Below the pieces are notes generated by a model, which saw only the letters and a list, made by a program, of their open reading frames with translations, ran no database searches and was not told the DNA's origin. Positions 2,688 to 40,042 of a stretch of 47,821 bases of DNA are shown in pieces. The stretch comes from a virus. Location: IMG/VR virus record IMGVR_UViG_3300037264_008253, positions 1 through 47,821 of that record. One strand, given 5' to 3'. Within the stretch, counting starts at the first letter, position 1. Every line of letters starts with the position of its first letter. Position numbers and translations under genes: made by a program.

Positions 2688-4252
2688 CTCCCAATCCTTT
2701 CCCCGAGCGCCACGGCGGGCGCCAAGGCGTCAACGATCCACCTGGGGTCGATCCCCATACAGGCCAGGTCAAGCCGCCGGCACCCCATGAACCGGGTCGT
2801 CCCCGGCGGTTGCTGGTGGTGGCACCCCAGACAGTCGAGCCCCGGTCGCCTCACCGGGAAGAGAAGCTCCGGACGGCCCGAGACCACCTCCGAGCTCGTC
2901 GCCCCGAAGACGACAACCGATGGGGTGCCCATCGCCTCGGCGATGTGGAAGGGCCCAGAGTCCAAGCCCAGGAACACCCTGGAACGACGAAGGACCCCCG
3001 CCAGGACAACAATCGAGGTCTTCCCGACCAAGTCCCTGTCCGGCCCGAGACAGGCCCCTCCTAGCCCAACCTCGACGATCAGGTACCCCATCTGCCGGAG
3101 CCTCTCCACCGCCGGCTGGAAAGCCGCCGGATCGGTGTCCTTCCCCGCCCAGCCAGTCCGGGTGAGACAAACTGTCGCAATCGGCCGGCCATCGGCCATG
3201 AGTCGCTGGTCGACCACCCGTTCCACCTCGGGGCTCACGTGGATATCGGGGACAGGGATCGGGTCCTCAGGAGCGAAGACCGTTGCCTCAGCGAAGGAGC
3301 GCCAGTAGGGGCGGGCAAGGGTCCGCTCGTAGGCCAAGTCGAGATCCCAGGCGTAGGCCATGGTCCGGCTCTGCCGCTCGTAGTCCCGGGGATTCATGAC
3401 CTGTTCGACGTGGGGATTGCCCTCGAAAACCCCAGTCAGGATGGTCGAGAAGAAGATCCGCGACTGGGGCCAGAGGCCATGGAGGAGCCGAGGGAGGGCG
3501 CTTGCGATCACGACGTCACCCAGGGCTGCTGTCCGCCTGATCGCGATCGTGGGATCAAAGGCCCGCCGCCTCAAGTAGTCGTGCCACCGCCTCACAAACC
3601 GCGCCCGGGCAAGGCTCAAATGCACCCCCACGTTCACCCCCCCATGGGCCTCCTTGGCCTCCTCGTTGGGGTGCCAAATGGGGGCATCCACGGTCTCGAT
3701 CCTGAGCCCTCGAGCCCGAAGCCGGAGCGAGAAGTCCGAGTCGTCCCCGTAGGCGAAGGGGAAGTACCGGTCGCAGAGACCGATCTCGTTGGCGAACTCT
3801 GTCCTCACCATGAAGCAGGAGCCATCGATGTACTCGAGGTTCCCCCCTGGGGCCCCGATCCCATCGAGCTTGAGACTCTGGTGCTGCCCCGATCGGCCGA
3901 CCTGCATCACCTTCGGGTCACGGTCGAGGGGCGCCCTCAGTGTCTCGAGCCAGCCCCGGCCGACCCAGGCGTCGTTGTCGAGGGAGACGAAGTAGGGTGC
4001 CCGTGCTCGCTCACAGGCTTCCCGCTTCGGGCCCGACACCCCGCGGTTCTCCTGGTTGACCTTGATCAGGATCCGCCGGTCCTCAGCAAGCCGGTTCAGG
4101 AGCTCAAGGCTCCCGTCGGTCGAGCCGTTGTCAGTGACCAGGACTTCGATATTCTGAGGCGAGTGGGCGAGGACCGACTTGATGCACCTCTCCGTCATCC
4201 AGCGCCGGTTATGGCAGAGGATGGAAATTGAATAGAGAGGTGTTTCAGTCAA
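2684..4252 (-). CDS. Bifunctional glycosyltransferase: GT2 domain fused to GT9 (heptosyltransferase-like) domain
   Basis: I place the start at a TTG that overlaps the upstream TGA (TTGA) after AAGAAG; an ATG at 4285 is the alternative. The N-terminal half (about 1-225) is a GT2 enzyme with SISILCHN, VTDNGSTDGS, SLDNDAW and the later YGDDSDFSLRLR motif. From about 240 a second domain begins with AIRRTAALGDVVIASALPRL. This is the N-terminal signature of GT9 ADP-heptosyltransferases, and it ends with GLDSGPFHIAEAMGTPSVVVFG, the GT9 donor-site region. A cysteine cluster (CLGCHH and later Cys) follows. Two activities in one chain suggest consecutive sugar additions. GT2-GT9 fusions are unusual in phages. 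A second GT9-like gene lies at 28492-29772. Confidence 0.8.
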   Translation of the reverse strand: MTETPLYSISILCHNRRWMTERCIKSVLAHSPQNIEVLVTDNGSTDGSLELLNRLAEDRRILIKVNQENRGVSGPKREACERARAPYFVSLDNDAWVGRGWLETLRAPLDRDPKVMQVGRSGQHQSLKLDGIGAPGGNLEYIDGSCFMVRTEFANEIGLCDRYFPFAYGDDSDFSLRLRARGLRIETVDAPIWHPNEEAKEAHGGVNVGVHLSLARARFVRRWHDYLRRRAFDPTIAIRRTAALGDVVIASALPRLLHGLWPQSRIFFSTILTGVFEGNPHVEQVMNPRDYERQSRTMAYAWDLDLAYERTLARPYWRSFAEATVFAPEDPIPVPDIHVSPEVERVVDQRLMADGRPIATVCLTRTGWAGKDTDPAAFQPAVERLRQMGYLIVEVGLGGACLGPDRDLVGKTSIVVLAGVLRRSRVFLGLDSGPFHIAEAMGTPSVVVFGATSSEVVSGRPELLFPVRRPGLDCLGCHHQQPPGTTRFMGCRRLDLACMGIDPRWIVDALAPAVALGERIGR

Positions 4253-4821
4253 GCGATCTTCTTGAAAGCCATCGCCCCACCCCATTGATCAGCCGAGGTT
4301 CGAGCGATGAGTTCCCAGCGGCCCATCCTGGTTCCGATCTGGTCGAGAGCCGAGAGAACGGCGATGTGGAAGTCAGGAGTCTGTGGGCCGTGCCCCTGGT
4401 AGTCCCGGCCCTGGACCGCAGGATCGGTGTCATGGAAGACGACAACCCCGCCATCGACCACCTTCCGGCTGTAGTTGTCCCAATCGAGGATCACGTGGTT
4501 CTTGCAATGGCAGCCGTCGATGATGACGAGATGAAGCCCATGAGGCACGCTATCGCTCACCTCGGCCGAGTCACCGACGATGAGGTGTGCTCCGATGAAA
4601 GGAGCAGCCACCGGCATGTCGCGCCCGTTGTCGATACCCCAGTAGGAGAATGGCCGGGTTCCCATGTATGACGAGATCGACCGCGACGTCTCCCCACCTC
4701 GGACTCCGATCTCGAGGATGTTCACGTGCTGGAAGTCCGCTGAGAGCTGATCGAGGAGTCGAGCAATGAGGCCCGCATCCTCGACACTCATGAGCCCATA
4801 GTTCACAAGCGTCTGCGTCAT
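4249..4821 (-). CDS. Class I methyltransferase / CmcI-like protein
   Basis: This 190-residue protein has a Rossmann SAM-binding motif ILEIGVRGGETS (about 35-46), an acidic VIIDGCHCKNH motif (about 104-114) and a following VVFHDTDP strand. These features are shared by cephalosporin-hydroxylase-like (CmcI) and Methyltransf_24 proteins, which often modify sugars. The ATG lies about six bases after a GGAGGGTGAG ribosome site. The stop overlaps the TTG of the GT2-GT9 gene, so this is the first gene of the four-gene glycosylation cluster. The substrate is unknown. Confidence 0.65.
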   Translation of the reverse strand: MTQTLVNYGLMSVEDAGLIARLLDQLSADFQHVNILEIGVRGGETSRSISSYMGTRPFSYWGIDNGRDMPVAAPFIGAHLIVGDSAEVSDSVPHGLHLVIIDGCHCKNHVILDWDNYSRKVVDGGVVVFHDTDPAVQGRDYQGHGPQTPDFHIAVLSALDQIGTRMGRWELIARTSADQWGGAMAFKKIA

Positions 4822-17240: not shown

Positions 17241-17795
17241 TTAGCTCGTCGGGCAAGGCTCCGAGATCACGATCCAGCCGAAGGGCCGAGTCGGGTGATG
17301 GCTCGAGCAATCGAGCGCCCGAATGACTCCCGTGAAGGAAGCGAAGCCCTCGCGCGAGAAGCTCAACGTGAACTCACCGAGAACCGAGGCCCGCGGGATG
17401 AAGATCTCGAACGTCTTGTCCTCGCAGGGGAACTCGTGGAAAAGCCTCACCCCGTAGGTGATCGTGCACCGAGAACCCGTGAGCGGAACGAGACACCCTT
17501 CGGCCACCGTGACCGGGTCCTCGTTCAAGAAGAAGCCCAGGTTCCGAGCGGTGACTTCGTCGGCCGTGATGTTGATCGTGTAGTCCTTGCCGATGGCGAA
17601 GATGGCATCGAGGGAGTTCGTGGTTCCCTTGCGATGCTCGAGAACATTCGGGGTGAACGTGAAGTCCCCCGAGTCGATGTTGCCGAGTGAGAACTCGACA
17701 CCACCGGCGGGGGTTGCGAAGAGCTCGAACGACCCGATCGTATAGTTCGGGTTTGCTGTCTCCGTACAGAGAAGCGGATCCAGGCTGACACTCAT
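17241..17795 (-). CDS. Major tail tube protein
   Basis: This 184-residue protein lies directly upstream of the tail chaperones, where the tail tube gene is expected. It is beta-rich (FTFTPNVLEHRKGTTNSL, KDYTINITADEVTARNLGFFL, ASVLGEFTLSFSREGFASF), the pattern of Phage_tail_tube folds including a strand-rich C terminus. A strong purine-rich leader (GGAGGAGGTAGGGAGG) precedes the ATG, fitting a high-copy structural protein. Its first twelve residues are identical to those of the tube-like protein at 12350-12904. Confidence 0.7.
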   Translation of the reverse strand: MSVSLDPLLCTETANPNYTIGSFELFATPAGGVEFSLGNIDSGDFTFTPNVLEHRKGTTNSLDAIFAIGKDYTINITADEVTARNLGFFLNEDPVTVAEGCLVPLTGSRCTITYGVRLFHEFPCEDKTFEIFIPRASVLGEFTLSFSREGFASFTGVIRALDCSSHHPTRPFGWIVISEPCPTS

Positions 17796-17825: not shown

Positions 17826-18410
17826 TTAGACGACGACCGGCTCGTCACAACAAGCTGGCGCCGCCACCCGCGTTCCTCGACTGATCACAAGCCAGCGGAA
17901 GCGGGTGAGAATCCGCCAGGCCCGCAAACCTTCCTGAAAACCAATTGGTGACACATCGCTTTCCTGGTGCATGTCACCGATCAAGATGTCAGATGGACAA
18001 CCAAACCTCGAGGCAGAGCTCCTTTGCCCGAGGATCCTGATCACATGGTCGTAGATCTCGAACGCCCAGAGGTCCCCTCCGACCTCCTGGCCCTGCGAAA
18101 TGACACCCAGGGTATCGATCACCGTTGACCGCGTGAAGATACCGATCACGAAAGTCCATGATGCACGGTCCTGACCAAACCCGATCTGTGAGCGTGACCA
18201 CTTGCCCATCGTCACGACAGCCCGGCAGAAATCCGCAGGCCACGGCTGCTCTTCTCTCCTGATCATGGGGAGAGAATGGGTCTCGAAAGGTTGCCCGCAA
18301 GGCTTCCCGGTCCCGTGGACGATCGTATCGTCCTCGTCGAGATAGGGCGGCAGACAAGCATCATTAGCGAGGAGATCGTAGATGTGAGCTGCGAGCAGGC
18401 GCCCTGTCAT
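17826..18410 (-). CDS. Tail terminator-like protein
   Basis: This 194-residue protein occupies the slot between the gp10-like neck gene and the tail tube gene, usual for tail terminators or completion proteins. It starts MTGRLLAAHIYDLL, has a central beta region (WSRSQIGFGQDRASWTFVIG) and an acidic helix. The ATG overlaps the upstream stop by 4 bp. The assignment is by order and length; no diagnostic motif is seen. Confidence 0.5.
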   Translation of the reverse strand: MTGRLLAAHIYDLLANDACLPPYLDEDDTIVHGTGKPCGQPFETHSLPMIRREEQPWPADFCRAVVTMGKWSRSQIGFGQDRASWTFVIGIFTRSTVIDTLGVISQGQEVGGDLWAFEIYDHVIRILGQRSSASRFGCPSDILIGDMHQESDVSPIGFQEGLRAWRILTRFRWLVISRGTRVAAPACCDEPVVV

Positions 18411-18583
18411 GGCTTCTCCTCCTTCCCCACCCTGTCATCCCTTCGCCACATCTCGAGCTCGCCGTCAAAGCGGTACTGATACGGACCGATCCGGATTATG
18501 CCCTGTTCGTCCGGGTGAAGGTCAAGTGTCGACACCATCATGGGCGAGAGCTCGGCTGGAGCTTCTTTCTCAATCGCCATCAT
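18407..18583 (-). CDS. Small hypothetical protein
   Basis: Starting at the ATG of 18583, which overlaps the upstream TGA (ATGA), the product is about 58 residues. It contains MVSTLDLHPDEQGIIRIG followed by YQYRFDGELEMWRRD. Many phages have a small gene between neck and tail-terminator genes. The family is not recognised. Confidence 0.5.
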   Translation of the reverse strand: MMAIEKEAPAELSPMMVSTLDLHPDEQGIIRIGPYQYRFDGELEMWRRDDRVGKEEKP

Positions 18584-19002
18584 TGACCCCATCTCTCAAG
18601 TGCTGGGAGAAGTCCGTCCCGGGCAAGCAATGCCACAACTTGCGGGAACGCCTCCTCAGAAGCCGGGAAAAGATAACCACCATCAGGCAAAGCCTCGACG
18701 TTTGGCGCGTACTCGACGAAGGTCCCGACCTCGGCCGAGATCCGGTCACCACCTGGCCCCGACCTGGTGAGCTGGGTATTGATCGACCGGCGGAGGTTCC
18801 CCGTCTTGACATGACCCTTTTCCGTGATGATCTCCTTGGCCCGGGCTTGGACGAGAAGCCCGCCGCGGAAGAGGCTCCGCCCCACACTCGACTGGACGTC
18901 CAAAAGGAGCTGGGCGTTCTTCTTTCGAATGATGGCGAACTCCTGTGCGATCAGCCTCCCGAGATCGGCTGCCTTCCTTGCTGTGACCGTTCGCTTCGCC
19001 AT
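18580..19002 (-). CDS. HK97 gp10-like neck/head-tail joining protein
   Basis: This 140-residue protein has the signature of HK97 gp10/tail-completion proteins: a helical N-terminal half (DLGRLIAQEFAIIRKKNAQLL), then HVKTGNLRRSINTQL. The T-G-x-L-R-x-S-I motif is highly characteristic. FVEYAPNVEALPDGG and a helical end follow. It lies between the head-closure fusion gene and the tail terminator, the standard order. Confidence 0.75.
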   Translation of the reverse strand: MAKRTVTARKAADLGRLIAQEFAIIRKKNAQLLLDVQSSVGRSLFRGGLLVQARAKEIITEKGHVKTGNLRRSINTQLTRSGPGGDRISAEVGTFVEYAPNVEALPDGGYLFPASEEAFPQVVALLARDGLLPALERWGQ

Positions 19003-20363
19003 CAGTGCACTGCCTTGATCGCACCAGCGGCCACATAGGCCGCCTGGGCATCTGGGTCAGACGCCTCCGGACCCGTGAAGCTGATCCACCCTCCGGACTC
19101 GTCCCATGCGGCAAGCACGGTTGCAAGGCTCGGTTCGTCGGGGACAATGATCGAGAGGACATTCCTTGGATGCTCCCGCCAGCCCGCAATCGAGTTCTGA
19201 AGCCTTGGTGGCGCCTCGAGTCCATTCGCCGCCGAGTTCTCATAGAAGATGGGGCGGGGGACCTTTTGAGCCGGGGAGCCTACCATCCGATGCTCTCCGT
19301 TCTTGATTACCCACCGGTTCCCGCCGGCTGCCATCTGATCACAGAGCTCATAGAAGGCAAAGATCGACGCCTGCCAGAGAGGCCACTTCGAGGCCAGGAT
19401 CGACTCGTAGGTCGCACCTTCAGGACACGCAGGACAGGGAGAGCCGGAACCCGAAGGCGTGCAGAAGAAATACTCGGGAGTGCTATCAAGCCATGCCTGA
19501 TCGAGGAAGAGCCCCGACCTTGGTGCCAAGGAAAAGAGCTTGTTCGCAATCGTGAGCCGTGCCGCGGCATTGATCTTCGACCAATCGACGAGTCGCCGGA
19601 TCGTGCAATCCGGATAGTGTTTGAAAATCGCAGGGTCGCCCGATGGATTCTCGAGGCCAGCGCCCAGGCCGTCACGGATTTCATCACGCCAGAAGTCGAA
19701 CCATGGGTCACTGAAGGCGTCAGGCGGAAACTCCATGATGTTGACATAGAAGAAGTGGAGCTTGCCTGTATCGATGAGCGAGGATACGGTTTCCTGTTCC
19801 TGGTCCGAATGCCCGTAAACGAAACCGTCGTAGGAGCCATAGTCCACCGAGCCGAGGCGGATGTTCTCGAGGTCGCTGACCTCGAAATGACGGAGGATGA
19901 GATGGGTTTCGCTTCCACCACCAGCACCTCCCTCGCCTGTCGTTCCGCCCGTCATCTCAGCCGGAAGCGAGCCCTCGGCCATCAGCTCACAAGCGTCCTT
20001 CACGATTCGGAGCGTATAGGTCGAGACCAGGCCATAGCCCGAGAAGTCCTTCGGCCGGCGGACTCCGACGACGTCATAGACCTCGTTGTTCTCCTCGTCG
20101 ATGAAGCGGTCCATGAGATTGATCGACTTCCCGTTCACCGCTCGAGCCCCCACGGCAAGGTGGGTCGGGTTCTTTGCTGCTTCCCCGGGCTCGATCCTCT
20201 CCCGCTCGAGATGATGATCTGCCCAGATCCTTGTCCAATAGTTCTGGATCACCGTCGAGTACCGCTCCGACGCTCCACCCATCCCGTCAGACATGCGGAT
20301 CCGGCGGGCCACCCGGACCTTTTGGGTCATGAGAAGGGAACGAGGAGTGCGAGCTACACCCAT
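19002..20363 (-). CDS. Head-closure protein fused to a glycoside-hydrolase-like domain
   Basis: I start at the ATG of 20363 (TGATG with the upstream stop), giving 453 residues. Residues 1-125 look like an SPP1 gp16/HK97-type head closure or head-tail joining protein (RVARRIRMSDGMGGASERYS, DRFIDEENNEVYDVVGVRR, VSTYTLRIVKDA). A flexible Gly/Thr linker (about 130-152) follows. The remaining 300 residues are related to the protein at 39104-40042; shared blocks are LRHFEVSDLENI/LRHLEVEDLEVI, DGFVYGH/DVFVYGH, VDWSKI/IDWSKI, FLDQAWL/FIDQYWL and RNVLS. That domain has the appearance of a TIM-barrel glycoside hydrolase (GH114-like). Joining a neck protein to an enzyme-like domain would place about a dozen copies at the portal ring; this is inference. 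Confidence 0.65.
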   Translation of the reverse strand: MGVARTPRSLLMTQKVRVARRIRMSDGMGGASERYSTVIQNYWTRIWADHHLERERIEPGEAAKNPTHLAVGARAVNGKSINLMDRFIDEENNEVYDVVGVRRPKDFSGYGLVSTYTLRIVKDACELMAEGSLPAEMTGGTTGEGGAGGGSETHLILRHFEVSDLENIRLGSVDYGSYDGFVYGHSDQEQETVSSLIDTGKLHFFYVNIMEFPPDAFSDPWFDFWRDEIRDGLGAGLENPSGDPAIFKHYPDCTIRRLVDWSKINAAARLTIANKLFSLAPRSGLFLDQAWLDSTPEYFFCTPSGSGSPCPACPEGATYESILASKWPLWQASIFAFYELCDQMAAGGNRWVIKNGEHRMVGSPAQKVPRPIFYENSAANGLEAPPRLQNSIAGWREHPRNVLSIIVPDEPSLATVLAAWDESGGWISFTGPEASDPDAQAAYVAAGAIKAVH

Positions 20364-20680
20364 CAGATTTGCTTGCGCCCCAAAGGACACTGGCCGATTG
20401 GCTCGAGGTGCCGAGGACACATGGTCTCCTCGAGATTCGCCTCCCACCAACACCCGGGGTTGGGCACCGGCTTCCCCATGGCCTCTGCCGCCTCCTGGTC
20501 GACCGGCTCGTAAACCTCTCTGAATACGACGTCCTTGACCGGATAGAGTTCACCGCGTGTTCCGCGGACGATCCAGTCCCCGGGGCCCGCCTGCATGGGA
20601 CCCTCCCAGGTTTCAACGATCTCGGCCGCCGTCGCTCGCCTGAGAACCTCAATAACGACTGGCAGCTTGCGAAACTTCAT
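20363..20680 (-). CDS. PGDYG-like small protein
   Basis: From the ATG of 20680, overlapping the upstream stop, the product is 105 residues. It starts MKFRKLPVVIEVLR and contains a PGDWIVRGTRGELYPVKDVV block followed by FREVYEPV. This is the pattern of the small phage PGDYG-type domain (GDx-hydrophobic-x-x-G-E-x-Y-P). The end is Cys-containing (CPRHLEPIGQC), possibly a zinc site. The function of this domain is unknown. Confidence 0.6.
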   Translation of the reverse strand: MKFRKLPVVIEVLRRATAAEIVETWEGPMQAGPGDWIVRGTRGELYPVKDVVFREVYEPVDQEAAEAMGKPVPNPGCWWEANLEETMCPRHLEPIGQCPLGRKQI

Positions 20681-21711
20681 CACACCACTCCCACGACAAC
20701 CGGAGCACCCTTGTACCGAGTGAGGATGGAATCGACCTCGGCAAAGCCCGTCATCCCATCCTCGGCCACGTTGTTCCATATCTTCCGCATGGTGTAGGAA
20801 AGGTCGCCCTGGGTTGCCTCAGCCGAGAAGGGGTGCGTGTGGGCCCCACCCGGATCGTCGCAGCGGGCGGCGTGCTGAAGGAGAAGCCCGAGGGCGTGCT
20901 TGATCTCCTCGGGTGGCGTCTCGTAGCGGCCCCAGCGGGCCTCCACCTTGACGTTGGAGAGCCCCATCGGGAAGACCCCACAGCCGTTGCCGCTGAAATC
21001 GTCGGTGAACCAACGAGAACGGGAACCGCGGAATGGCAAGGGCACCACGTTCCCCATTCCGAGCATCGTCCTCGATGGCGTGATCCGAATCCCCGTGATA
21101 TCGATCACGTTCTCCTCGTTGTTGCACCCCAAGAAGATGAGCCCAAGGAGTTCGAGGATCGGCCTGCGGATCGTCAAGACAGGGCGCCCCATGCCCGAGA
21201 AGATCCTGGTCTCGGTAATCGGGAAGAAGTGCTGACCTGTGATCTTCCGGATAGTCTCCTGGGCCCTCGAGAGGATGGCAAGGATCTGATCGTCGTTGAG
21301 CCCAGAGCCCTCGGTCAAATAGTCGCGCGCCTCCTCGACCGAGAGATAGCTCGTCGAGGAACTGGGCGCGTGAACGAACTCGCTCGCTACCCCAATGTGG
21401 AAGATGTACTGAGTCGCAGGCGTCTGGCCGTCCACCGTGCCAGTCGTGAAGATTGTGTACGTCTCTTCGCTCGTGAAGCCGTTCGCGGTACTGAGAACGA
21501 TCGTCGCCGTATACCAGCCAGTCGTACCGACTGAGTCTCGAAGGGCAAACGTCCCAGTCATGACCGGCGTGTCGGGGTCCCCGGCCGCTACCGAGCCGCG
21601 GTAGATCCTGAACTCGGGCGGGGCAGCCGCATCGACTGCCGACCCTGTCGAGCCCTGAGCCACGAGCGGAATGATGAGTGTCTCACCGAGACGGTACTTG
21701 CCGAGGAACAT
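20680..21711 (-). CDS. Head-tail connector (gp6-like) with N-terminal beta domain
   Basis: This 343-residue protein has a C-terminal part with the gp6/HK97-type connector pattern: SVEEARDYL, then ILAILSRAQETIRKITGQHF, then VKVEARWG and a helical end. About 115 residues precede it with an Ig-like beta-strand pattern (ETLIIPLVAQGSTGSA, GWYTATIVLSTANG). Standard gp6 proteins are about 110-200 residues, so this one carries an extra N-terminal domain. Its location just before the head-closure gene agrees with an adaptor ring under the portal. Confidence 0.75.
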   Translation of the reverse strand: MFLGKYRLGETLIIPLVAQGSTGSAVDAAAPPEFRIYRGSVAAGDPDTPVMTGTFALRDSVGTTGWYTATIVLSTANGFTSEETYTIFTTGTVDGQTPATQYIFHIGVASEFVHAPSSSTSYLSVEEARDYLTEGSGLNDDQILAILSRAQETIRKITGQHFFPITETRIFSGMGRPVLTIRRPILELLGLIFLGCNNEENVIDITGIRITPSRTMLGMGNVVPLPFRGSRSRWFTDDFSGNGCGVFPMGLSNVKVEARWGRYETPPEEIKHALGLLLQHAARCDDPGGAHTHPFSAEATQGDLSYTMRKIWNNVAEDGMTGFAEVDSILTRYKGAPVVVGVV

Positions 21712-21870: not shown

Positions 21871-23112
21871 CTATCTCTGGAACGGAACCACCGAGCTGGC
21901 CCTTATCACATCCTTGGCTGATCCCGTGGGCGTGAAGAAAATCTTGAGCCCCAGATGCGCGCCACCCGTCATGGCGGCCGGTGTGTTGGCCGGCACGCAT
22001 TGCCAGTCGATCGTGTCCCCGGGGGTGATCGTGACGTCGGTACTAAAATTCGCCTTGCTCGCTGCCTCCGAGATGGTCACCGCAAGGGCGGTATCTGCAA
22101 GCTCTTTGCGAAGAGTGAATGTCCATGACTGGACCCCGGCGCCGTTGTCTGCCGGCGTACCGATTTGGACGTATATCGACTTGGCGGTTCCACCGGCAAG
22201 GATCATTCCCCGGATGTCTTCGAAGGCGGCCCACGTCCCCGCACCCCCACCCTGGAGCTGCTCCCATTCGGTCCCTGAGACAAGCGGCGGATTCGAGTTA
22301 CCAAACAAGATCATGCTCTCGCCGGCAGTCGTCGGAATACAAACGATCGACCAGGCAACCGGAGAAGCAGCGGGGACAAGTGTAACGGCCGATTGGAAGG
22401 AGAGCGTATCGGCAGCACCGAAGGCAAGTGTTGTCGTCGTGTCCTGCCCAGCCGTTGCCGTATCAGCAATCGTGACAGTGGGGGCACCAGCAGCCGAGCC
22501 ACCCAGCAACACGCTGAACGTGCGACTGGTCGCAGTCCCCGGGGCAGTCCCTAATCGGACATAGAGATCCCGCAGGGTGCCAGCAAGGGGTGCAATCTGC
22601 ATAACGTTGGACTGCGCGACGGCTTCCCATACGCCGATACCACCTTGAAGTCCCTGCCATTCCGTGGCCGTCGTTGATGCGTTCGTTGCCGTATGGCCGA
22701 ACATGACGAAGGTGTTGTTTGAGGTCTTGGCGAGAATGCCCCAATGCTGCTGCCCGCTAGCATCGGGAGTGCTCACAGGGGTATGTCGCATGGAGATCGT
22801 ATCTCCAGCGGCAAAGGTAACAGCCTGACCAGTGACACTTCCCGTATTCGCCGAGTCGCTGATGGTGACCACAAGAGCCGTAGCCGATCCGTTCTTCATC
22901 ACCGTAAAGACGAAGCTGTTCCCAGCACCGGGAGGGTCGAGTGTTTCGACATACATCTCGGTCAGCGTCATTGCCCCGGCGACCGGGCAATCACGATCGG
23001 TCTCCGTTGCACTCCACGTCGAAGGAAAAGACGCGCATATGAAATTGAAATTGTCGACCGAGTTACTCGGTGTCGAGTTGTCCGAGCCACTGATGAGGAA
23101 ATTCATTGCCAT
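21871..23112 (-). CDS. Virion protein with three tandem beta domains
   Basis: I start at the ATG of 23112, sharing a base with the TAA of the upstream gene (TAATG). The 413 residues fall into three repeats of about 130 residues. Each runs through LTEMYVETLDPPGAGNSFVFTV-like, VTISDSANTG-like and FAAGDTISMR-like strands, with an ATEWQGLQGG/GTEWEQLQGG block at repeat ends. Each is a likely beta sandwich. The gene follows the repeat-fibre genes, and the product is probably a decoration or fibre component. Confidence 0.6.
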   Translation of the reverse strand: MAMNFLISGSDNSTPSNSVDNFNFICASFPSTWSATETDRDCPVAGAMTLTEMYVETLDPPGAGNSFVFTVMKNGSATALVVTISDSANTGSVTGQAVTFAAGDTISMRHTPVSTPDASGQQHWGILAKTSNNTFVMFGHTATNASTTATEWQGLQGGIGVWEAVAQSNVMQIAPLAGTLRDLYVRLGTAPGTATSRTFSVLLGGSAAGAPTVTIADTATAGQDTTTTLAFGAADTLSFQSAVTLVPAASPVAWSIVCIPTTAGESMILFGNSNPPLVSGTEWEQLQGGGAGTWAAFEDIRGMILAGGTAKSIYVQIGTPADNGAGVQSWTFTLRKELADTALAVTISEAASKANFSTDVTITPGDTIDWQCVPANTPAAMTGGAHLGLKIFFTPTGSAKDVIRASSVVPFQR

Positions 23113-26100
23113 TAAGGCGTCTCGTCGATCAAGTAGTAGGAGAAGATGACGTGGATATTCCCAGCGGTCGCCGCCGAGCACGTAAACCGAGGCTCCTCGC
23201 CAGCCGCACCCACGGCTATGATTCCAGCCCCCGTGCCACACATAACCCCGGAACCAGGGGCAAGGCCCGGATGACTGCCGATCATCCCGCTCACACCGCT
23301 TGCGGAAGCCGTAGGGACGCTCGCGGTTCCGAATCCTGCCCGGACGGGGACGGCGGCCGCGGTCGTTGCCGCATCGTTCAACGCCTCGAACCGCGTGACA
23401 TAGATACGCTCATCGGCTGCCACTGCCGCCGCTGCCAGGTTGACATCGGTCTGGGCACTTGCGCCGAAGTCGTATTCGCGCGTGATAAGATTCGGATGCC
23501 CGGCGATGACGTATGGGATCCCGTGCTGGTTGGCAATGAACCGCGTGCGGTCGGCTGCGGCAACCGACGTTGGGGTAGCCGATCCGCTGACCGCCACCCC
23601 TCCGACCTTGACTACCTCGCCGGCATCGACGGCGTCATGGTCACGATTGCCAACCAGACGGACATTCCCCTCGGTGTCGGTGGCAATCGGAATATAGTCT
23701 CCGTCGGCGGCACGAGCGACATTCGCCTCGTTGGATACGGCAAGCGCCATGACGCCGGTATCCCCATGGACGTGCCCTGCATCCTCGGCTTTCCCCAAGT
23801 GATTCGATGAGGTTCCTGGAACAATCGACGCGAGAACCGAACCGACGTCCACTGTCCCCGAAACCGTGACGTCGTTGTTGTTCCCCAAGTCGACGACCAG
23901 CCCAACAGTTGAGTTGCCTGGGGCGCGATCCCAGTTTGTCCCGTCCCAAATTAGGAGGTTGGCCCCGACACGCGAGGTCGTTGGGTTCGGATCGTTGTCA
24001 GCAAGCGCCGAGGCTGCGGGGAGTTCTGTGTCAACGGTGACAGTGCCGCTGATCGACACCGTTCCAGTGACCGTGACGTCATTGTTGGCGCCGAGATTGA
24101 CGAGCTGCCCATCCGCAGAGTTCCCAGGAGCGCGGTCCCAAGTTGCCCCATCCCAAATGAGCAAGTTGGCGCCGACCCTCGAGGTGGTCGGGTTAGCGTC
24201 GTTGTCCGCGAGTGCCGCAGCGGCGGGGAGTTCAGTATCGACGGTCACTGTCCCCGTAATCGTGACATCATTGTTGGCACCAAGATCAACGAGCAATCCA
24301 TTGGCCGAGGTCCCCGGAGCCCGGTCCCACGTCGAGCCGTCCCAAACGAGCAGGTTGGCCCCAATACGGGAAGTTGTCGGGTTGGCATCGTTATCGGCTA
24401 AGGCTGTCGCTGCGGGTAGCTCCGTATCGACCGTTACGGTCCCGCTTATGGATACCGTTCCGGTCACAGTGACGTCGTTGTTTGCGCCGAGATTGACCAG
24501 TTGACCGTCGGCCGTATTCCCTGGGGCGCGATCCCAGTTGGCCCCGTCCCAGATGAGAAGATTCGCTCCAACCCGTGACGTCGTAGGGTTGGGATCGTTA
24601 TCCGCAAGGGCCACTGCGGCCGGCAGCTCCGTATCCACAGTCACGGTACCCGTCACCGTCACATCGTTGTTTGCTCCCAAGTTGACAAGGAGACCGTCAG
24701 CCGATGTGCCAGGAGCTCTATCCCACGTTGCTCCATCCCAAATCAAAAGATTGGCACCAATACGAGATGTCGTTGGATTCGCATCATTGTCGGCAAGAGC
24801 CGACGCACTGGGGAGCTCGGTATCTACCGTGACGGTTCCGGTGATTGAGACCGTCCCGGTTACGGTGACGTCGTTGTTGGCACCGAGATTGACAAGAAGC
24901 CCATCGGCTGAGGTTCCAGGAGCCCTGTCCCAAGTAGCCCCATCCCAGATGAGAAGGTTGGCTCCCACCCTTGAGGTTGTGGGGTTGGCATCATTGTCGG
25001 CGAGGGCACTTGCGGCCGGCAATTCGGTGTCAGCGGTGATCGTTCCGCTGATCGGAATGGTCCCGGCGATCCTGACGGCCGATGCTCCCGCCGACGCCTC
25101 TATCCGCGCATTCGACGTTCCCGACGTGAAGGCTGATACCCGTAGACGAACCTGGGAATAGCCAGTCGAAGTGAAGACCCCGCGATCGGCAAAGGTCACC
25201 GTTGAGGAGATGACAGTGCCGTTGATCCGCATGGCCTCGATGGCGAACCAGTTCGTGTCGTCGAGGGTGGCCTCGAAAACGACCGTACCGACAAGGGTGC
25301 CGGTATCAATCTCCCAGTTAAGGGTGCCCGTCCCCTCGGCCCGAATTGAGACGGCGGCATTGAGAGCCCCAAGGGCACCCGATGCAACGACGTTGGCCGG
25401 CGGGCGCGTGATATCGACGTCGAGCCCTTGAGCTGAATCGCCCGGGGCCCGATCCCATGTCGCCCCGTCCCAAATGAGGAGATTCGCTCCAATCCTAGAG
25501 GTCGTCGGATTCGGGTCATTGTCGGCGAGAGCCGAGGCCGAAGGAAGCTCGGTGTCCACCGTGACCGTCCCGCTGATCGAAACGGTACCCGTTACCGTGA
25601 CGTCATTGTTGGTGCCAAGATTAACGAGCAATCCATTAGCCGAAGTTCCAGGAGCACGGTCCCAAGTTGCCCCATCCCAAATGAGCAAGTTGGCCCCGAT
25701 GCGAGAAGTAGTTGGATTAGCGTCGTCGTCCGCAAGGGCAGACGCCGTTGGGAGTTCAGTGTCCACGGTAACGGTCCCAGAAATTGAAACCGTGCCCGTT
25801 ACGGTGACGTCGTTGTTTGCTCCAAGGTCAACAAGCAATCCGTTGGCGGTGTTTCCTGGAGCACGATCCCAGTTGGCGCCGTCCCAGATGAGAAGATTCG
25901 CACCGATTCTAGGAGTGGTCGGATTGGGATCGTTATCCGCCAAAGCGGAAGCACTGGGAAGTTCCGTATCCGCGGTGACTGTGCCCGTCACGGTAACGTC
26001 ATTGTTGGCACCCAAGTCAACAAGGAGACCGTTTGCCGCATTCCCAGGAGCCCTATCCCAGGTGGCACCATCCCAGATGAGAAGGTTGGCACCGATACGA

Positions 26101-26399
26101 GACGTTGTTGGATTGGCATCATTGTCAGCAAGAGCGGATGCCGATGGAAGCTCCGTATCCACGGTAACGGTGCCGGTGATGGTGACATCGTTGTTAGCAC
26201 CTAAATTAACAAGAAGACCGTCAGCAATCGAACCTTGGGCTGGGCGCAGAGTATTGCCAGCATCCTCCATCATCATCGCTGTGCCGGTGATCGTGGCATC
26301 GACGTCGCCTTCGGTGTATTGGACACCTCCGCCGAATGAGGTGATGACCGGCAGCATCGACGATTGCGACGTTAAGAGAATCGTTCGTTCCTGTATCAC
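23112..26399 (-). CDS. Repeat-rich virion/fibre protein, downstream part
   Basis: The frame encodes ten copies of a ~60-residue unit built around NPTTSR(I/V)GANLLIWDG, WDRAPG and LGANNDVTVTG, plus a central unique beta domain (PPANVVASGALGALNAAVSI onward) and a C-terminal domain of about 250 residues ending YYLIDETP. The first ~20 residues are out of frame with homologous repeats, because a net 5-base loss separates this ORF from the upstream one at 26221-28473. The apparent start (GTG at 26399) has no ribosome site. So this is either the second half of a broken gene or depends on re-initiation or recoding. Synonymous codons differ between copies. Confidence 0.7.
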   Translation of the reverse strand: MIQERTILLTSQSSMLPVITSFGGGVQYTEGDVDATITGTAMMMEDAGNTLRPAQGSIADGLLVNLGANNDVTITGTVTVDTELPSASALADNDANPTTSRIGANLLIWDGATWDRAPGNAANGLLVDLGANNDVTVTGTVTADTELPSASALADNDPNPTTPRIGANLLIWDGANWDRAPGNTANGLLVDLGANNDVTVTGTVSISGTVTVDTELPTASALADDDANPTTSRIGANLLIWDGATWDRAPGTSANGLLVNLGTNNDVTVTGTVSISGTVTVDTELPSASALADNDPNPTTSRIGANLLIWDGATWDRAPGDSAQGLDVDITRPPANVVASGALGALNAAVSIRAEGTGTLNWEIDTGTLVGTVVFEATLDDTNWFAIEAMRINGTVISSTVTFADRGVFTSTGYSQVRLRVSAFTSGTSNARIEASAGASAVRIAGTIPISGTITADTELPAASALADNDANPTTSRVGANLLIWDGATWDRAPGTSADGLLVNLGANNDVTVTGTVSITGTVTVDTELPSASALADNDANPTTSRIGANLLIWDGATWDRAPGTSADGLLVNLGANNDVTVTGTVTVDTELPAAVALADNDPNPTTSRVGANLLIWDGANWDRAPGNTADGQLVNLGANNDVTVTGTVSISGTVTVDTELPAATALADNDANPTTSRIGANLLVWDGSTWDRAPGTSANGLLVDLGANNDVTITGTVTVDTELPAAAALADNDANPTTSRVGANLLIWDGATWDRAPGNSADGQLVNLGANNDVTVTGTVSISGTVTVDTELPAASALADNDPNPTTSRVGANLLIWDGTNWDRAPGNSTVGLVVDLGNNNDVTVSGTVDVGSVLASIVPGTSSNHLGKAEDAGHVHGDTGVMALAVSNEANVARAADGDYIPIATDTEGNVRLVGNRDHDAVDAGEVVKVGGVAVSGSATPTSVAAADRTRFIANQHGIPYVIAGHPNLITREYDFGASAQTDVNLAAAAVAADERIYVTRFEALNDAATTAAAVPVRAGFGTASVPTASASGVSGMIGSHPGLAPGSGVMCGTGAGIIAVGAAGEEPRFTCSAATAGNIHVIFSYYLIDETP

Positions 26400-28473
26400 G
26401 AACGGTCGCAGTTAGAGTACCATCGCCGATCTTCACCGAATCGGATACGTGGGTAAGGTCTCGGATATCGAGGTCGGTCGCTGCCACAGTGACGGTTCCG
26501 GTGATCGTCACATCATTGTTGGCACCGAGATTTACGAGCAGGCCATCCGCTGACGTTCCCGGCGCCCTGTCCCAGGTGGCTCCATCCCAAATCAAAAGGT
26601 TGGCACCGATGCGGGACGTTGTCGGATTCGGATCGTTGTCGGCGAGGGCCGTTGCCGAAGGGAGCTCCGTGTCTACGGTAACGGTGCCGGTCACCGTCAC
26701 ATCGTTATTGGCACCGAGGTCGACGAGTAGTCCGTTCGCCGATGTTCCCGGCGCTCTGTCCCAGTTGGCCCCATCCCAGATAAGAAGGTTCGCCCCAATG
26801 CGTGACGTTGTGGGGTTGGGATCATTGTCTGCCAGCACCGTTGCCGCCGAGAGTTCCGTATCAACGGTGACAGTTCCAGTGATCGTCACATCATTGTTGG
26901 CTCCGAGATTGACAAGGAGACCGTCAGCAATCGATCCCTGCAACGGGCGGAGAGTGTTCCCGGCATCCTCCATCATCGCAGCCGTGCCGGTGATGGAAAG
27001 ATCAACATCGCCTTCGGTGTACTGAACCCCACCGCCAAAGGATGTGATATGCGCCCCTGCCGCATCAACGATTGCGACATTGAGAGAGTCGCTTGTGCCC
27101 GTATCGCGGACTGTCGCCGTCAGGGTGCCGTCACCAATCTTCACCGAGTCGGAGACATGGGTCAGGTCTCGGATATCGAGATCTGTAGCCACGACGGTGA
27201 CGCTACCGGTCACAGTCACATCGTTGTTTGCACCAAGATCAACCAGTAGCCCGTTGGCAGAACTCCCTGGTGCCCGGTCCCAGGTAGCCCCGTCCCAGAT
27301 GAGAAGGTTCGCCCCAATGCGTGAGGTGGTCGGATTCGGGTCGTTGTCAGCAAGAGCCGCAGCACTGGGGAGTTCGGTGTCAACCGTCACGGTACCGGTG
27401 ATGGTGACGTCGTTGTTGGCGCCCAGGTTGACAAGCAAGCCGTCGGCGATCGAGCCCTGAAGAGGACGAAGGGTATTGCCCGCGTCCTCCATCATCCCCG
27501 CCGTGCCAGTGATTGAAGCGTCTACGTCGCCCTCGGTGTACTCGGTACCGGCGCTCGAGCCCGAGATGATCGTCACCGGGAACGGGGTCGCCGCCGATGC
27601 CGGCCGGAGGGTGTTGCCAGCATCCTCCCACATGGCCGCGGTTCCAGTAATCGAGGCATCGACGTCCCCCTCGGTATACTGGACACCTCCACCAAAGGAC
27701 GTGATCTGTGCCCCAGCAGCGTCGACGATTGCCACGTTGAGCGAATCGCTGGCACCGGTGTTCCTGACCGTTGCCGTGAGCGTCCCGTCACCGATCTGTA
27801 CCGAGTCGGAAACGTGGGTGAGATCTCGGATGTCCAGGTTCGTCGCCGTGACCGTGACAGTCCCGGTGATGGTGACATCGTTGTTGGCCCCGAGGTTGAC
27901 AAGGAGACCGTCCGTGGAATTCCCGGGCGCGCGATCCCACGTCGCCCCGTCCCAAATCAGAAGGTTGGCTCCTACCCTTGAGGTCGTGGGATTTGGATCG
28001 TTGTCGGCAAGGGCGGAAGCGGCAGGAAGTTCCGTGTCTACCGCCACGGTCCCTGTCACCGTGACGTCGTTGTTAGCTCCCAGATTGACAAGCTGGCCAT
28101 CGACGGAATTCCCCGGGGCCCGGTCCCATGTCGCACCGTCCCAGATGAGAAGGTTCGCTCCGACTCTCGAGGTGGTCGGGTTCGGATCGTTGTCAGCAAG
28201 GACAGCCGCAGCTGGGAGTTCGGTATCAACCGTGACTGTGCCGAGGATGGAGACTGACCCATCGATCGTGATACTGCCGCCGTTGTCATCGATCGAAAGC
28301 GGCTCTTGAACGAGTACGTGGAGCCTGCCACCGGTGACATCGACCAGGTCCCCGAGTGCATTGGCGAGGACCATGACTTCCATGTGAACGGTGTCGGGAC
28401 CGATAAGAACGGTCTCGCTGCGTAACTTCTTGCCTGCGCCATCCAAAGGCAGAGCGATAAACGATTCGGCCAC
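26221..28473 (-). CDS. Repeat-rich virion/fibre protein, upstream part
   Basis: The protein begins MAESFIALPLDGAGKKL, then has a beta region (MEVMVLANALGDLV), and then five copies of the LLIWDG unit. These are interspersed with three copies of a second cassette (LDIRDLTHVSDSV, SLNVAIVDAAG, ITSFGGGVQYTEGDVD, EDAGNTLRP). In the last cassette the frame shifts right after NVAIVDAAG, and the remaining ~45 residues are Arg/His-rich nonsense ending at 26221. The homologous sequence continues in the ORF starting at 26399. The combined intact product would be about 1800 residues, plausible for a long beta-repeat fibre or decoration protein. Confidence 0.7.
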   Translation of the reverse strand: MAESFIALPLDGAGKKLRSETVLIGPDTVHMEVMVLANALGDLVDVTGGRLHVLVQEPLSIDDNGGSITIDGSVSILGTVTVDTELPAAAVLADNDPNPTTSRVGANLLIWDGATWDRAPGNSVDGQLVNLGANNDVTVTGTVAVDTELPAASALADNDPNPTTSRVGANLLIWDGATWDRAPGNSTDGLLVNLGANNDVTITGTVTVTATNLDIRDLTHVSDSVQIGDGTLTATVRNTGASDSLNVAIVDAAGAQITSFGGGVQYTEGDVDASITGTAAMWEDAGNTLRPASAATPFPVTIISGSSAGTEYTEGDVDASITGTAGMMEDAGNTLRPLQGSIADGLLVNLGANNDVTITGTVTVDTELPSAAALADNDPNPTTSRIGANLLIWDGATWDRAPGSSANGLLVDLGANNDVTVTGSVTVVATDLDIRDLTHVSDSVKIGDGTLTATVRDTGTSDSLNVAIVDAAGAHITSFGGGVQYTEGDVDLSITGTAAMMEDAGNTLRPLQGSIADGLLVNLGANNDVTITGTVTVDTELSAATVLADNDPNPTTSRIGANLLIWDGANWDRAPGTSANGLLVDLGANNDVTVTGTVTVDTELPSATALADNDPNPTTSRIGANLLIWDGATWDRAPGTSADGLLVNLGANNDVTITGTVTVAATDLDIRDLTHVSDSVKIGDGTLTATVRDTGTNDSLNVAIVDAAGHHLIRRRCPIHRRRRRCHDHRHSDDDGGCWQYSAPSPRFDC

Positions 28474-28491: not shown

Positions 28492-29772
28492 TCAGGCCAT
28501 CGCCACTTGAGCGAGATCAACTCGCTGGCGCAGCCGAACATCCTTGAGAGGAGCTCGGCGTGGAAAGTCGACTGGGATGGGCGTGAACTCAGCATCCAAT
28601 GGCCAGGGCGGATTCCGCTCCGCCATGAAGAGCACCTCACGCCAAACAGCCTCGACTGAGATCGCCCGGGTACAGGGCTTGGGGTCCGGCAGATTGCAGG
28701 CCGAGTGGTAACAAGGTGAGCAAGGAAGGCTTGCCCAAAGAGAGCGTGTCCAGCGGTAGTGCCGAAGCCTCGCATCAGGATCGACCGTCGACATTATCGC
28801 CACCGTCCGAGTGGAAAGAGCCTCGGCCAGGTGGAGCACCCCGGTATCCGGGGACACGACGACGTCGCATCCCTGGACAAGAGCCATGAGGGCGTGCATG
28901 TCGAGCTTGCCGGTCAGGTTGACACCACCGGAGGCGAGGAAGTTGCCGTCGGGCTCGAGCCGGGCGACGTCGATCAGGACAGGCTTCCAGCCCTCACGCG
29001 AAGCCTTGAGTGCCAGCTCTCCCTGACTTCGGAATGGCCATGAGCGGTTCCCCTGGGACGCTCGAGCAACGATCCCCAGAACCGGCCGGCCGCCAACCTC
29101 GGGCTCTTCGGCAAGTGCCCGCCCGCGGGCCCGCTCCTCGTCGCGCCGCTTGAGGGGGTAGCTGTAGTCGAGAGGCTTCCTGCCGAGAAGGTGCTCGGCG
29201 TAGCAGTCGATCCGGAACTTACGCTCGTTCCCGTTCCGCTCGGAGAAGCCCCGCATCTCGATCCCGTAAGGGTAGTGACCGAGGAGGCTCTCCACTGGGA
29301 CCACCGCATCAAGAAAGTCGAGGTCCCGGAGGGCCGCCAAATAGGGCTGGCCTGTCGCATAGATGAAGCGGAGGCGGGGGTAGACCTGGGCAAGCTCACG
29401 GAGGGCAATCGTGAGCATGAGAACATCCCCCAAGCCCATCGTCCGAACGATGGGGACGACCGTCCCCGGGGGTGCCGCTCTGAGTGCCCGGGGAGTCGTC
29501 CAGTCGATCTCCCGATCGGGGTCGACGAATCCACCCTTGGTCGAGAGGAACTCGTAGTCCTGGGGGCTCAGGTTTCCAACGGCGATCCCGCGGCGGAAGT
29601 GGATCACCTTCGAGGGGTCGGCGACCGAGCGGTGAACGTAGGAGAGCGCCCGTGCGAGAACGAGTCTCACCACCTCACCACCCTTTCCCGGGCCCGTTAG
29701 GACTGGGGATCCCCAGAGGTCCTTAAAAGAACCCCCAGCCCCAAGGGCCATCAAACCGTAGGCCAGCGCCAT
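28492..29772 (-). CDS. GT9 (heptosyltransferase-like) glycosyltransferase
   Basis: The 426-residue ORF has an active-site N-terminal motif VPIVRTMGLGDVLMLTIALR (G-x-G-D-x-L) and a C-terminal donor site CDVVVSPDTGVLHLAEALST, both GT9 hallmarks. A cysteine motif (CSPCYHSACN) and a CTRAISVEAVW end follow, as in heptosyltransferases. Initiation could also be at a GTG near 29670 after AAGGGTGGTGAG; the first 33 residues look atypical. It sits between major capsid and fibre genes, far from the other glycosyltransferases. A role in sugar-modifying virion proteins is possible. Confidence 0.75.
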   Translation of the reverse strand: MALAYGLMALGAGGSFKDLWGSPVLTGPGKGGEVVRLVLARALSYVHRSVADPSKVIHFRRGIAVGNLSPQDYEFLSTKGGFVDPDREIDWTTPRALRAAPPGTVVPIVRTMGLGDVLMLTIALRELAQVYPRLRFIYATGQPYLAALRDLDFLDAVVPVESLLGHYPYGIEMRGFSERNGNERKFRIDCYAEHLLGRKPLDYSYPLKRRDEERARGRALAEEPEVGGRPVLGIVARASQGNRSWPFRSQGELALKASREGWKPVLIDVARLEPDGNFLASGGVNLTGKLDMHALMALVQGCDVVVSPDTGVLHLAEALSTRTVAIMSTVDPDARLRHYRWTRSLWASLPCSPCYHSACNLPDPKPCTRAISVEAVWREVLFMAERNPPWPLDAEFTPIPVDFPRRAPLKDVRLRQRVDLAQVAMA

Positions 29773-29891: not shown

Positions 29892-31022
29892 TTACGGAGT
29901 CGGCTCGCCTCCCGAACCGAGATCGATGCACTCGTTGCACCGATTCGCGAGGGCCGCCGGGCTACAGCTACCCGGTCCGCAGTTGATGAGCGTCATGCAG
30001 TCCATGAGTGAGGTCGCTTCCTCGTTCAGGACCAAGAAGTCCATCCGGAGCGAGTAGATGAACCAAGTCCGGTGCTCCCGAGCGACCCGCTCACGCTCGA
30101 ACTGGATCTCCCGCTGGATACCCCAGATCAAGTTGGCCGGGTTGGTCAAGAACATGAACGTCCCGAGGGGGCCACCCACCGACCCGCATCCGCAGTTCTG
30201 GATATCGGTCGGGAGGAGCCGGAGCGTCCGGATCGGGGTCGTGAGGTGTCGCGACTCGAGGGGCCCGAGATGAGCGGAATCCCCGAGAGCCGTCTCCCGG
30301 CCCTGGTGCCTTTCGGCGTAGTCGAACCACATCTTCCGCGGCATGTAGATCCGCATCGCCTCGGGCTGATCGGCGAATTCATCTGGGATCGCCCGCTCGA
30401 GACAGTTGAGCTTATGGAAGCTGAGGGTCCGATCCGCGGGGTCGACCGCATTCGCGTCCAAGATGTTGCCGAACTGGAGCTGGCGGTAGTACCCGTCACG
30501 GAGGGAGATGACCGAGTTGGCGATCGTCGACGGCTTGGTATAGGAGCCGTTGGTGTTCCCCATGAGAGCGAAGAACTCGATCTCGTTCGAGAGCCGGTCG
30601 GCCGCCATCCGGAGAACCTTCCGCTCGAGCTCGGCGCCAATCAGGTTGTCCTCGATGTCGGTGTCGCAGAGGTAGAACTTGGCGTCGAGCGACACCGTCC
30701 GAAGACACTTGTTCGTGTTCGAGATGTCGACTGACTCGGTGGCGGCTGCGCCGCACACGATCTGCCGGAGTATCCCGCCGTCCATGTCGAGGAAGCGGAT
30801 CTCCTGCTCGTTCGTGTCCATCCTCCAGACGGTGACGTCTTGGAGTAGGTCCGAAATGTCGATCACGTAGTCAATGAGCTCATCGGCCTCTTCCGGCTGA
30901 ATGATCGCCGGGGCCGATGCTGTGAGGAGGAACTTGCGTGCCTCCTCCTTGGTGAGCCTCCGGGCCCCACTGGCCGCTGAACGGCCGAGGGAGAGAAGAC
31001 TCAATGCCCGCTGGCTTGGCAT
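29892..31022 (-). CDS. Major capsid protein (HK97 fold)
   Basis: The protein has about 376 residues starting at the ATG of 31022, with a GGAAAGGGGGG leader. It follows the protease and scaffold-like genes. An N-terminal helix region (LTKEEARKFLLTASAPAII) is followed by E-loop-like beta sequence, a long helix with IEFFALMGNTNG, and P-domain-like segments (MRIYMPRKMWFDYAERHQ). The C-terminal region has FIYSLRMDFLVLNEEA. Length and place fit an HK97-fold capsid protein. The C terminus carries several Cys (GPGSCSPAALANRCNECIDL), unusual and possibly metal-binding or disulfide-linked. Confidence 0.8.
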   Translation of the reverse strand: MPSQRALSLLSLGRSAASGARRLTKEEARKFLLTASAPAIIQPEEADELIDYVIDISDLLQDVTVWRMDTNEQEIRFLDMDGGILRQIVCGAAATESVDISNTNKCLRTVSLDAKFYLCDTDIEDNLIGAELERKVLRMAADRLSNEIEFFALMGNTNGSYTKPSTIANSVISLRDGYYRQLQFGNILDANAVDPADRTLSFHKLNCLERAIPDEFADQPEAMRIYMPRKMWFDYAERHQGRETALGDSAHLGPLESRHLTTPIRTLRLLPTDIQNCGCGSVGGPLGTFMFLTNPANLIWGIQREIQFERERVAREHRTWFIYSLRMDFLVLNEEATSLMDCMTLINCGPGSCSPAALANRCNECIDLGSGGEPTP

Positions 31023-31059
31023 ACCCACACCCCCCTTTCCTCACACACCCCGCCTGCCT

Positions 31060-39103: not shown

Positions 39104-40042
39104 TTATTTCGCCAGGGTTGACCGGGGCACCACCTTACCCGCCTTGCGGCACCGCACCGCCCGCTCGTAGAAGGGCTGTACCTGCTCGAACGAGTCCTGG
39201 GTCAGGGAAATCATCCCACCATAATCGATCCATGCTTTGAGTAGCACCGTCTCGAAGTTCCCGGGGTCGACGCTCAGGACGTTCCGCCGGTGACCACGCC
39301 ACAGCTCGACCGACTGCTCCCAGGGCCATATATGAACCCAGTGCGAGTTTTCCAGAAACACCGGCATCGTCGATTGACGCTCCCCGTTGACCAGGACGAT
39401 TCCCCCAGCGCGGTCGTTCACCCCTTCGCGAACCAGGGTCAGGTAGTTGCTGATGTTCAGCTTCCACGCCTCGGCCGTACCTGGCGCCAGATGTTCGATC
39501 GATCCGCCGTCGGGCGCATCCATCCAGTCCGCCGGGGCGAGCCAGTATTGGTCGATGAACATATGGGTGCACGCGCGGGACAGTCTGACCTGCGTATCGG
39601 CGATCTCTTGCTGGTGCCCGGCGTCGATCTTCGACCAATCGATCAGGGACGGATTCCCCAAGGCGGAGAAGAGAACCTTGCGCCCCAGCGTATCGACAAG
39701 TACGGCGTTCCATTCGGTGCGTACCTTGGCATCGATCCAATTGAGCCACGTATCGTCGCCGCCGACCCATTCCGGCCGTGGCAGGGTGAGAACGTTGTAA
39801 TAGCGGAAGCCGGGATTGCCGGCCTGGACCAGACCCGAGACCGCATCTTCGTAGGTCCCCGTATGACCGTAGACGAACACGTCGAGCGGCTCGAGTTCGG
39901 CGGGTGAACCACCATCGGCAATTACTTCGAGGTCCTCAACTTCCAGGTGGCGCATGAGGAGCCGATCGGGAGGGCGGGTGTACCACCAACCGCCACCGGC
40001 AAGTACGAGTGCCATTCCGATTGCAAGAAAAGTCCGCTTCAC
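39104..40042 (-). CDS. Signal-anchored glycoside-hydrolase-like protein
   Basis: The 312 residues start with a signal peptide or anchor (MKRTFLAIGMALVLAGGGWW). The remainder matches the C-terminal domain of the head-closure fusion at 19002-20363 over its full length, including MRHLEVEDLEVI, LDVFVYGHTG, SLIDWSKIDAG, TSHMFIDQYWL-like and RRNVLSVDPGNFET blocks. The FIDQYWL block resembles an acidic active-site strand of TIM-barrel glycoside hydrolases, but the nucleophile cannot be assigned. Its secreted form could act on the host envelope or on glycans during adsorption or release (inference). It lies between the zinc-ribbon genes and the MuF locus. Confidence 0.6.
   Translation of the reverse strand: MKRTFLAIGMALVLAGGGWWYTRPPDRLLMRHLEVEDLEVIADGGSPAELEPLDVFVYGHTGTYEDAVSGLVQAGNPGFRYYNVLTLPRPEWVGGDDTWLNWIDAKVRTEWNAVLVDTLGRKVLFSALGNPSLIDWSKIDAGHQQEIADTQVRLSRACTHMFIDQYWLAPADWMDAPDGGSIEHLAPGTAEAWKLNISNYLTLVREGVNDRAGGIVLVNGERQSTMPVFLENSHWVHIWPWEQSVELWRGHRRNVLSVDPGNFETVLLKAWIDYGGMISLTQDSFEQVQPFYERAVRCRKAGKVVPRSTLAK

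Follow-up and report, generated by a model that had tools for sequence, protein, structure and literature searches.

Does a phage carry a glycoside hydrolase-like enzyme on the neck of its virion? One gene of an uncultured phage contig raises this question (the contig is called the window here, meaning the whole stretch of 47,821 nucleotides that was analyzed). A sequence-only reading had described this gene as a head-closure protein joined by a Gly/Thr linker to an enzyme-like domain. The open reading frame at 19002-20363 is real; its strand had been left unstated, and we place it on the minus strand, running 20363..19002 with a translation of 453 aa. The plus-strand reading of the same interval was rejected as lying on the wrong strand. 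The gene begins with an ATG at 20363, which overlaps the upstream gene's stop codon in the sequence TGATG, and stops at 19002 in a second TGATG overlap with the start of the downstream gene. Thus, it appears to be embedded in a single transcription unit. An alternative ATG start is found at 20330. The two halves of the gene resemble each other, and the neighboring genes, in GC content by codon position. The gene is organized as follows:

19002..20363, minus strand: fusion gene, 453 aa, with a probable head-closure (stopper) N-terminus, a linker and a glycoside hydrolase-like (β/α)8 barrel (from translation, junctions and homology)
19992..20363, minus strand: N-terminal part, residues ~1-124 (~125 residues), probable head-closure/stopper domain (from gene order)
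19908..19991, minus strand: linker, residues ~125-152 (~28 residues), the ACELMAEGSLPAEMTGGTTGEGGAGGGSET region with Gly/Thr at its end (from translation)
19002..19907, minus strand: glycoside hydrolase-like barrel domain, residues ~153-453 (~300 residues; from an AlphaFold2 model, Foldseek and invariant residues)

The linker is read through without a stop and contains two internal ATG codons, neither with a strong ribosome-binding site.

The barrel domain is encoded twice in the window

The C-terminal domain of the fusion protein (residues ~153-453) has a homolog elsewhere in the window:

39104..40042, minus strand: second copy, stand-alone, 312 aa (from translation and alignment to the C-terminal domain of the fusion protein)

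A two-sequence comparison aligns them over 286 columns with 30% identity (E = 1e-24), which bears out the earlier statement that their relation is certain. A contig-wide search detects the domain in exactly these two places, with a cross match of E = 2e-21. The blocks quoted in favor of the relation were right in substance, being similar and not in all cases identical by letter (fusion/second copy: DGFVYGH/DVFVYGH, VDWSKI/IDWSKI, FLDQAWL/FIDQYWL and RNVLS/RNVLS). D164 and E231 of the second copy are the equivalents of D288 and E375 of the fusion protein. At its N-terminus, the second copy has a hydrophobic segment, VKRTFLAIGMALVLAGGGWWY, following KR; this predicted membrane anchor or signal sequence would anchor or export the protein.

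The C-terminal domain resembles glycoside hydrolases in predicted fold

AlphaFold2 predicted a barrel of alternating strands and helices (pTM 0.77) for L006, a homolog encoded on phage contig G004. In the model of the full fusion protein (pTM 0.57), the C-terminal part is likewise a barrel, with most blocks at a pLDDT of at least 70. Foldseek searches against the PDB with both models returned glycoside hydrolases as the closest folds. For L006, the top of the list comprised GH168 endo-fucanases (GH168 9nhf, 4e-6), Endo H, GH166 PelA (5tsy, 3e-4), GH31 and Ega3 (GH114; 6oj1, 3e-3). For the fusion protein, it comprised a Planctomycetota structure (9f9v, 2e-7) and GH31/GH36. The TIM-barrel, glycoside hydrolase-like character proposed for this domain was therefore recovered. 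As the TM-scores are modest (0.4-0.58) and the rmsd is high, the models support the fold class, a glycoside hydrolase-type barrel, and no family assignment follows. Profile searches with the barrel domain of either copy gave no family match in Pfam, PHROGs or NCBIfam and no relevant PDB sequence match, and no sequence similarity to GH114, GH166, GH168 or any CAZy family was detected. A tblastn search of 50,697 phage records revealed no relatives of either copy. Two scans of genome contigs, employing different patterns that were all short and degenerate, revealed no cellular relatives.

Among nine distinct homologs, 21 positions are invariant. In fusion numbering, they include Arg158-His159, Asp288 at the end of strand 4, Asn355-Gly356, and Glu375 at strand 6. 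Judging from the secondary structure of L006, the corresponding residues lie around the mouth of the barrel (R6-H7 at the end of strand 1, D126 after strand 4, N184-G185 at the end of strand 5 and E196 at strand 6). The two acidic residues are spaced by 67-103 residues among the homologs, and the loop around the candidate catalytic Glu is modeled at low confidence. Because these positions are invariant in nine distinct homologs, the barrel has plausibly kept an active site, in which D288 and E375 would be the catalytic residues. The retaining α-glycosidases of clan GH-D (GH27/31/36) likewise have an Asp at strand 4 and an acidic residue at strand 6. From sequence and model, we infer a retaining α-glycosidase-type enzyme as the candidate activity. 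Parallels to the putative catalytic pair are Asp156/Glu225 of TmGH191, Asp157/Glu225 of FsGH114 and Asp160/Glu223 of PelA (PMC12054363), as well as D206/E264 of the GH168 enzyme FunA (PMC11943901). GH114 Ega3, GH166 PelA, GH191, GH135 and the GH168 endo-fucanases share with our domain the (β/α)8 barrel and an Asp followed by a Glu at strand C-terminal ends with similar spacing. They differ from it in that sequence similarity is not detected and TM-scores are low, and in that the barrel described here is phage-encoded within a neck cluster.

Alternatively, the barrel might only bind glycans or reinforce the joint, without catalysis, like the lactococcal neck passage structures or the neck decoration of phage 812. 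The accessory domains reported on necks to date are binding or structural, and the neck copies of contigs G003 and G004 (see below) have lost several residues of the DGFVYGH block as well as the DW aspartate. However, the copies are only ~30% identical and yet invariant in the Asp/Glu pair and in further residues at strand C-terminal ends, which would be unusual for a mere scaffold. We thus consider a purely binding or structural barrel rather unlikely.

Barrel genes recur in the neck clusters of other phages

Relatives were obtained by scanning viral contigs, where patterns from the C-terminal half brought in a second type of copy. Stand-alone barrel copies were found in G001/G002, G003/G005 and G004. 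In six other uncultured phage contigs with four distinct sequences (G003 and G005, which are identical; G004; G006/G008; G007), the barrel is a separate gene of the neck cluster that directly follows the gp10/Neck1 gene, stop and start abutting. The order in G004 is portal/MuF, protease, capsid protein (phrog_10), adaptor (phrog_442), Neck1/gp10 (phrog_26), barrel, a 282-aa protein, a probable tail protein and the tape measure. The neck-cluster copies are under purifying selection (dN/dS of 0.06-0.20 between them). A second barrel copy lies elsewhere in G003, G004 and G005, so that these contigs, like the window phage, encode the barrel once in the neck cluster and once outside it; the short contigs G006-G008 have one copy each. 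In a tree of the domain, the window copies group neither with each other nor with the neck or lysis copies at trustworthy support, and no close relatives of the window phage were found by terminase.

G001 (L039 5152-8170, L003 3746-5532), a distant contig that harbors its stand-alone barrel copy near TerL, also has genes for NeuB, a CTP-transferase and a Polysacc_synt_2 dehydratase as well as an aminotransferase-like gene. Together they may make up a phage-borne pathway for a nonulosonic (sialic-acid-like) sugar.

The neck location thus recurs; the fusion was seen in the window phage only. The best evidence for a product that belongs to the neck is this position of the barrel, joined to a neck-cluster protein in one phage and next to one in others; it suggests, and does not prove, the presence of an enzyme at the neck of these virions. 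A different role would be that of a late intracellular enzyme that acts on host glycans at lysis, perhaps also made on its own by translation from an internal start codon, which would not be part of the virion and would lie in the neck cluster incidentally. In line with such a role, the other, stand-alone copy of G004 is followed by an Amidase_3 (N-acetylmuramoyl-L-alanine amidase) gene, the stand-alone copy of the window has its predicted membrane anchor or signal sequence, and the linker offers two internal ATG codons. Against it, the neck-cluster copies are without an obvious signal sequence; all four distinct sequences keep the gene at one position, alongside another copy wherever the contig is long enough; and in the window, the barrel is read in frame with a neck-cluster protein. 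A role confined to lysis therefore appears improbable to us.

The fusion was observed in a single metagenomic contig, and in the relatives the barrel gene abuts its neighbor stop-to-start, so that one lost stop could fuse the two. An error of sequencing or assembly that links two neighboring genes would produce the same picture. However, the upstream neighbor is not the same, being gp10-like in the relatives and a different protein in the window. Moreover, the join is a Gly/Thr-rich linker and the TGATG overlaps with the neighboring genes are kept at both ends of the gene. We therefore hold an artefact to be very improbable and regard the fusion as genuine.

The N-terminal part occupies the slot of a head-closure protein

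The neck-cluster genes around the fusion gene were assigned as follows:

29892..31028, minus strand: major capsid protein, XkdG type (phrog_1623, 1.5e-38; phage major capsid matches)
20680..21711, minus strand: head-tail adaptor, gp6-like (phrog_442, 2.8e-18)
20363..20779, minus strand: small gene between adaptor and fusion gene (phrog_419, 8e-15, a family of unknown function)
18580..19002, minus strand: HK97 gp10-like/Neck1, tail completion (phrog_5, 4e-5; PF04883, 0.0055)
17826..18410, minus strand: probable tail terminator, from its position between the gp10-like gene and the major tail protein; no family match
17241..17795, minus strand: major tail protein (phrog_807, E = 4e-4)

Compared with annotated adaptors, the window adaptor is similar to that of Circinus (z = 7.2) and that of TunaTartare (z = 6.4). 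The fusion gene lies between the adaptor and gp10/Neck1 genes, i.e., in the slot of HK97 gp7, and the order of capsid, adaptor, small gene, fusion, gp10/Neck1, probable terminator, major tail protein and tape measure parallels HK97 gp5-gp6-gp7-gp10-gp11-gp12-gp16. In TunaTartare, the gene following the adaptor, in the same slot, is annotated as head-to-tail stopper.

Sequence comparisons of the N-terminal part gave no match to the PF05521 (Phage_HCP), TIGR01563 and PF12206/DUF3599 profiles, no significant match in Pfam, NCBIfam, PHROG or PDB sequence searches or to SPP1 gp16-like proteins, and no likeness to the TunaTartare stopper or its Circinus counterpart. An HMM built from 13 gp7-like proteins scores it at 3.6 bits, above 99.4% of shuffled sequences (6 of 1000 scored higher), and in this weak alignment the N-terminal hairpins are in register. 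Using hhalign, the probability of a match to head closure was 0.8%, beaten by 1 of 60 shuffles. The AlphaFold2 model of this part stays below a pLDDT of 50 for lack of homologs. As Ares1, Drs3 and G004 have a gp10-like gene directly after the adaptor or after a gene in the adaptor's place, a stopper gene at this slot is not universal.

In several phages with XkdG- or phrog_10-type capsids (L028 6373-7634, L050 5742-6841 and L051 5125-5996), the adaptor or its stand-in is followed by gp10/Neck1 with no visible stopper gene.

The N-terminal part could also be another module of the neck cluster, for example a decoration domain associated with the adaptor or gp10, in which case the barrel would still be a neck accessory. 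The lack of a significant match to the gp7-like, SPP1 gp16-like or DUF3599 families and the related clusters without any gene at this slot speak for such a module. However, the order of adaptor, fusion, gp10, terminator, Ig-type tail protein and tape measure matches HK97 and TunaTartare, in which this slot belongs to gp7 or the stopper, and the weak gp7-like alignment is in register at the hairpin. Another module is thus a possible, though less favored, identity, and from gene order we consider the N-terminal part to be probably a head-closure (stopper) protein. The earlier assignment to head closure accordingly stands as far as gene order goes and is not matched by significant sequence similarity or a confident model. 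With head-closure proteins (HK97 gp7, lambda gpFII, SPP1 gp16, phage 812 gp97), the N-terminal part shares the slot between adaptor and gp10-like/terminator genes and a size of ~125 aa; the differences are the missing significant sequence match and the 300-residue C-terminal barrel that the fusion adds. About 12 copies had been proposed at the head-tail joint. The stopper rings of lambda (gpFII; PMC10721106) and phage 812 (gp97; PMC12886913) consist of six subunits, so the fusion protein, if it is a stopper, would be present in about six copies.

Further genes of the window were recorded in and around the structural module. Three large ORFs of 456, 1095 and 750 aa lie between the capsid protein and the adaptor (21871-28473, minus strand); two of them consist mostly of ~60-residue repeats (TVTVDTELPAASALADNDANPTTSRIGANLLIWDGATWDRAPG...LGANNDVTVTGT), and the repeat ORFs possibly encode virion decoration or fibre proteins. 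A 908-aa MuF-like head morphogenesis protein (PF04233; 35995-38721, minus strand) has extra C-terminal regions, namely a phrog_2563 match and a part of unknown type, and contains the motif AKHLPxxHDQSTHGR twice. A GT9 (heptosyltransferase-like) gene directly follows the capsid gene on the minus strand. The window also encodes a methyltransferase and two proteins of GT2 type, one of which has a C-terminus like GT9:

28492-29772, 1908-4285 and 4249-4821, minus strand: glycan-modifying genes (GT9, two GT2-type, methyltransferase), inside and near the structural module

A proposed model for an enzyme ring at the phage neck

Accessory domains on neck proteins have been documented. Lactococcal phages bear neck passage structures with exchangeable C-terminal domains, some of them carbohydrate-binding (PMC10684548). 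In R4C, an accessory Ig-like domain is fused to the adaptor, a neck ring protein, and displayed at the periphery (PMC10276861). The phage 812 stopper has an extra external β-sandwich, and this phage also possesses neck decoration proteins (PMC12886913). The earlier remark that neck fusions of this type are not known was hence too broad and applies to the enzyme-like barrel only: titles and abstracts of the literature, covered in part, yielded no neck or head-closure protein to which a glycoside hydrolase is attached. Like our fusion protein, the lactococcal structures are neck proteins with a C-terminal accessory domain; their anchor protein differs, and their domain binds carbohydrate, with no glycoside hydrolase-type barrel found for it. 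R4C presents an Ig fold on an adaptor of 12 copies, whereas the fusion would present a TIM barrel on what is probably a stopper of six copies, and the extra domain of the phage 812 stopper is a β-sandwich as opposed to an enzyme-like barrel. Judging from sequence and models, the fusion is best described as a neck protein with an accessory carbohydrate-active-type domain that has an enzyme-like fold and comes from an unnamed family.

In our best explanation, six copies of the N-terminal part would build the head-closure (stopper) ring that separates adaptor and tail, and six barrels would hang outside this ring on flexible linkers. The substrate of each barrel would be an α-linked polysaccharide close to the host surface, be it capsule, biofilm matrix or a secondary wall polymer, and cleavage would use Asp288 as the nucleophile and Glu375 as the acid/base. 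The virion would thereby keep trimming sugar at the head-tail joint while diffusing through, or sitting on, the host coat. The separate copy at 39104-40042, membrane-anchored or exported, would attack glycans of the same type from the side of the infected cell, e.g. at release. We give this reading of the gene as a neck protein carrying a glycoside hydrolase-like barrel an even chance. More tentatively, a phage-specific glycoside hydrolase family might have become a permanent neck component in the virions of some uncultured phages, forming an enzyme ring at the joint that is fused to the stopper in one lineage, with a second, exported or lysis-associated copy acting on the same glycan from within the cell.

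Phages are known to bear polysaccharide-degrading enzymes on their tail spikes, fibres and tail tips. The barrel, which separate lineages keep at one neck position and which is joined in a single case to a probable stopper, defines an unnamed protein family. Its nine distinct sequences share a plausible active site and lack a Pfam, PHROGs or NCBIfam entry. If our explanation is true, the neck would be a further site at which virions carry enzymes, and a neck enzyme could explain how the head side of the particle is released from sugars of the host or the matrix.
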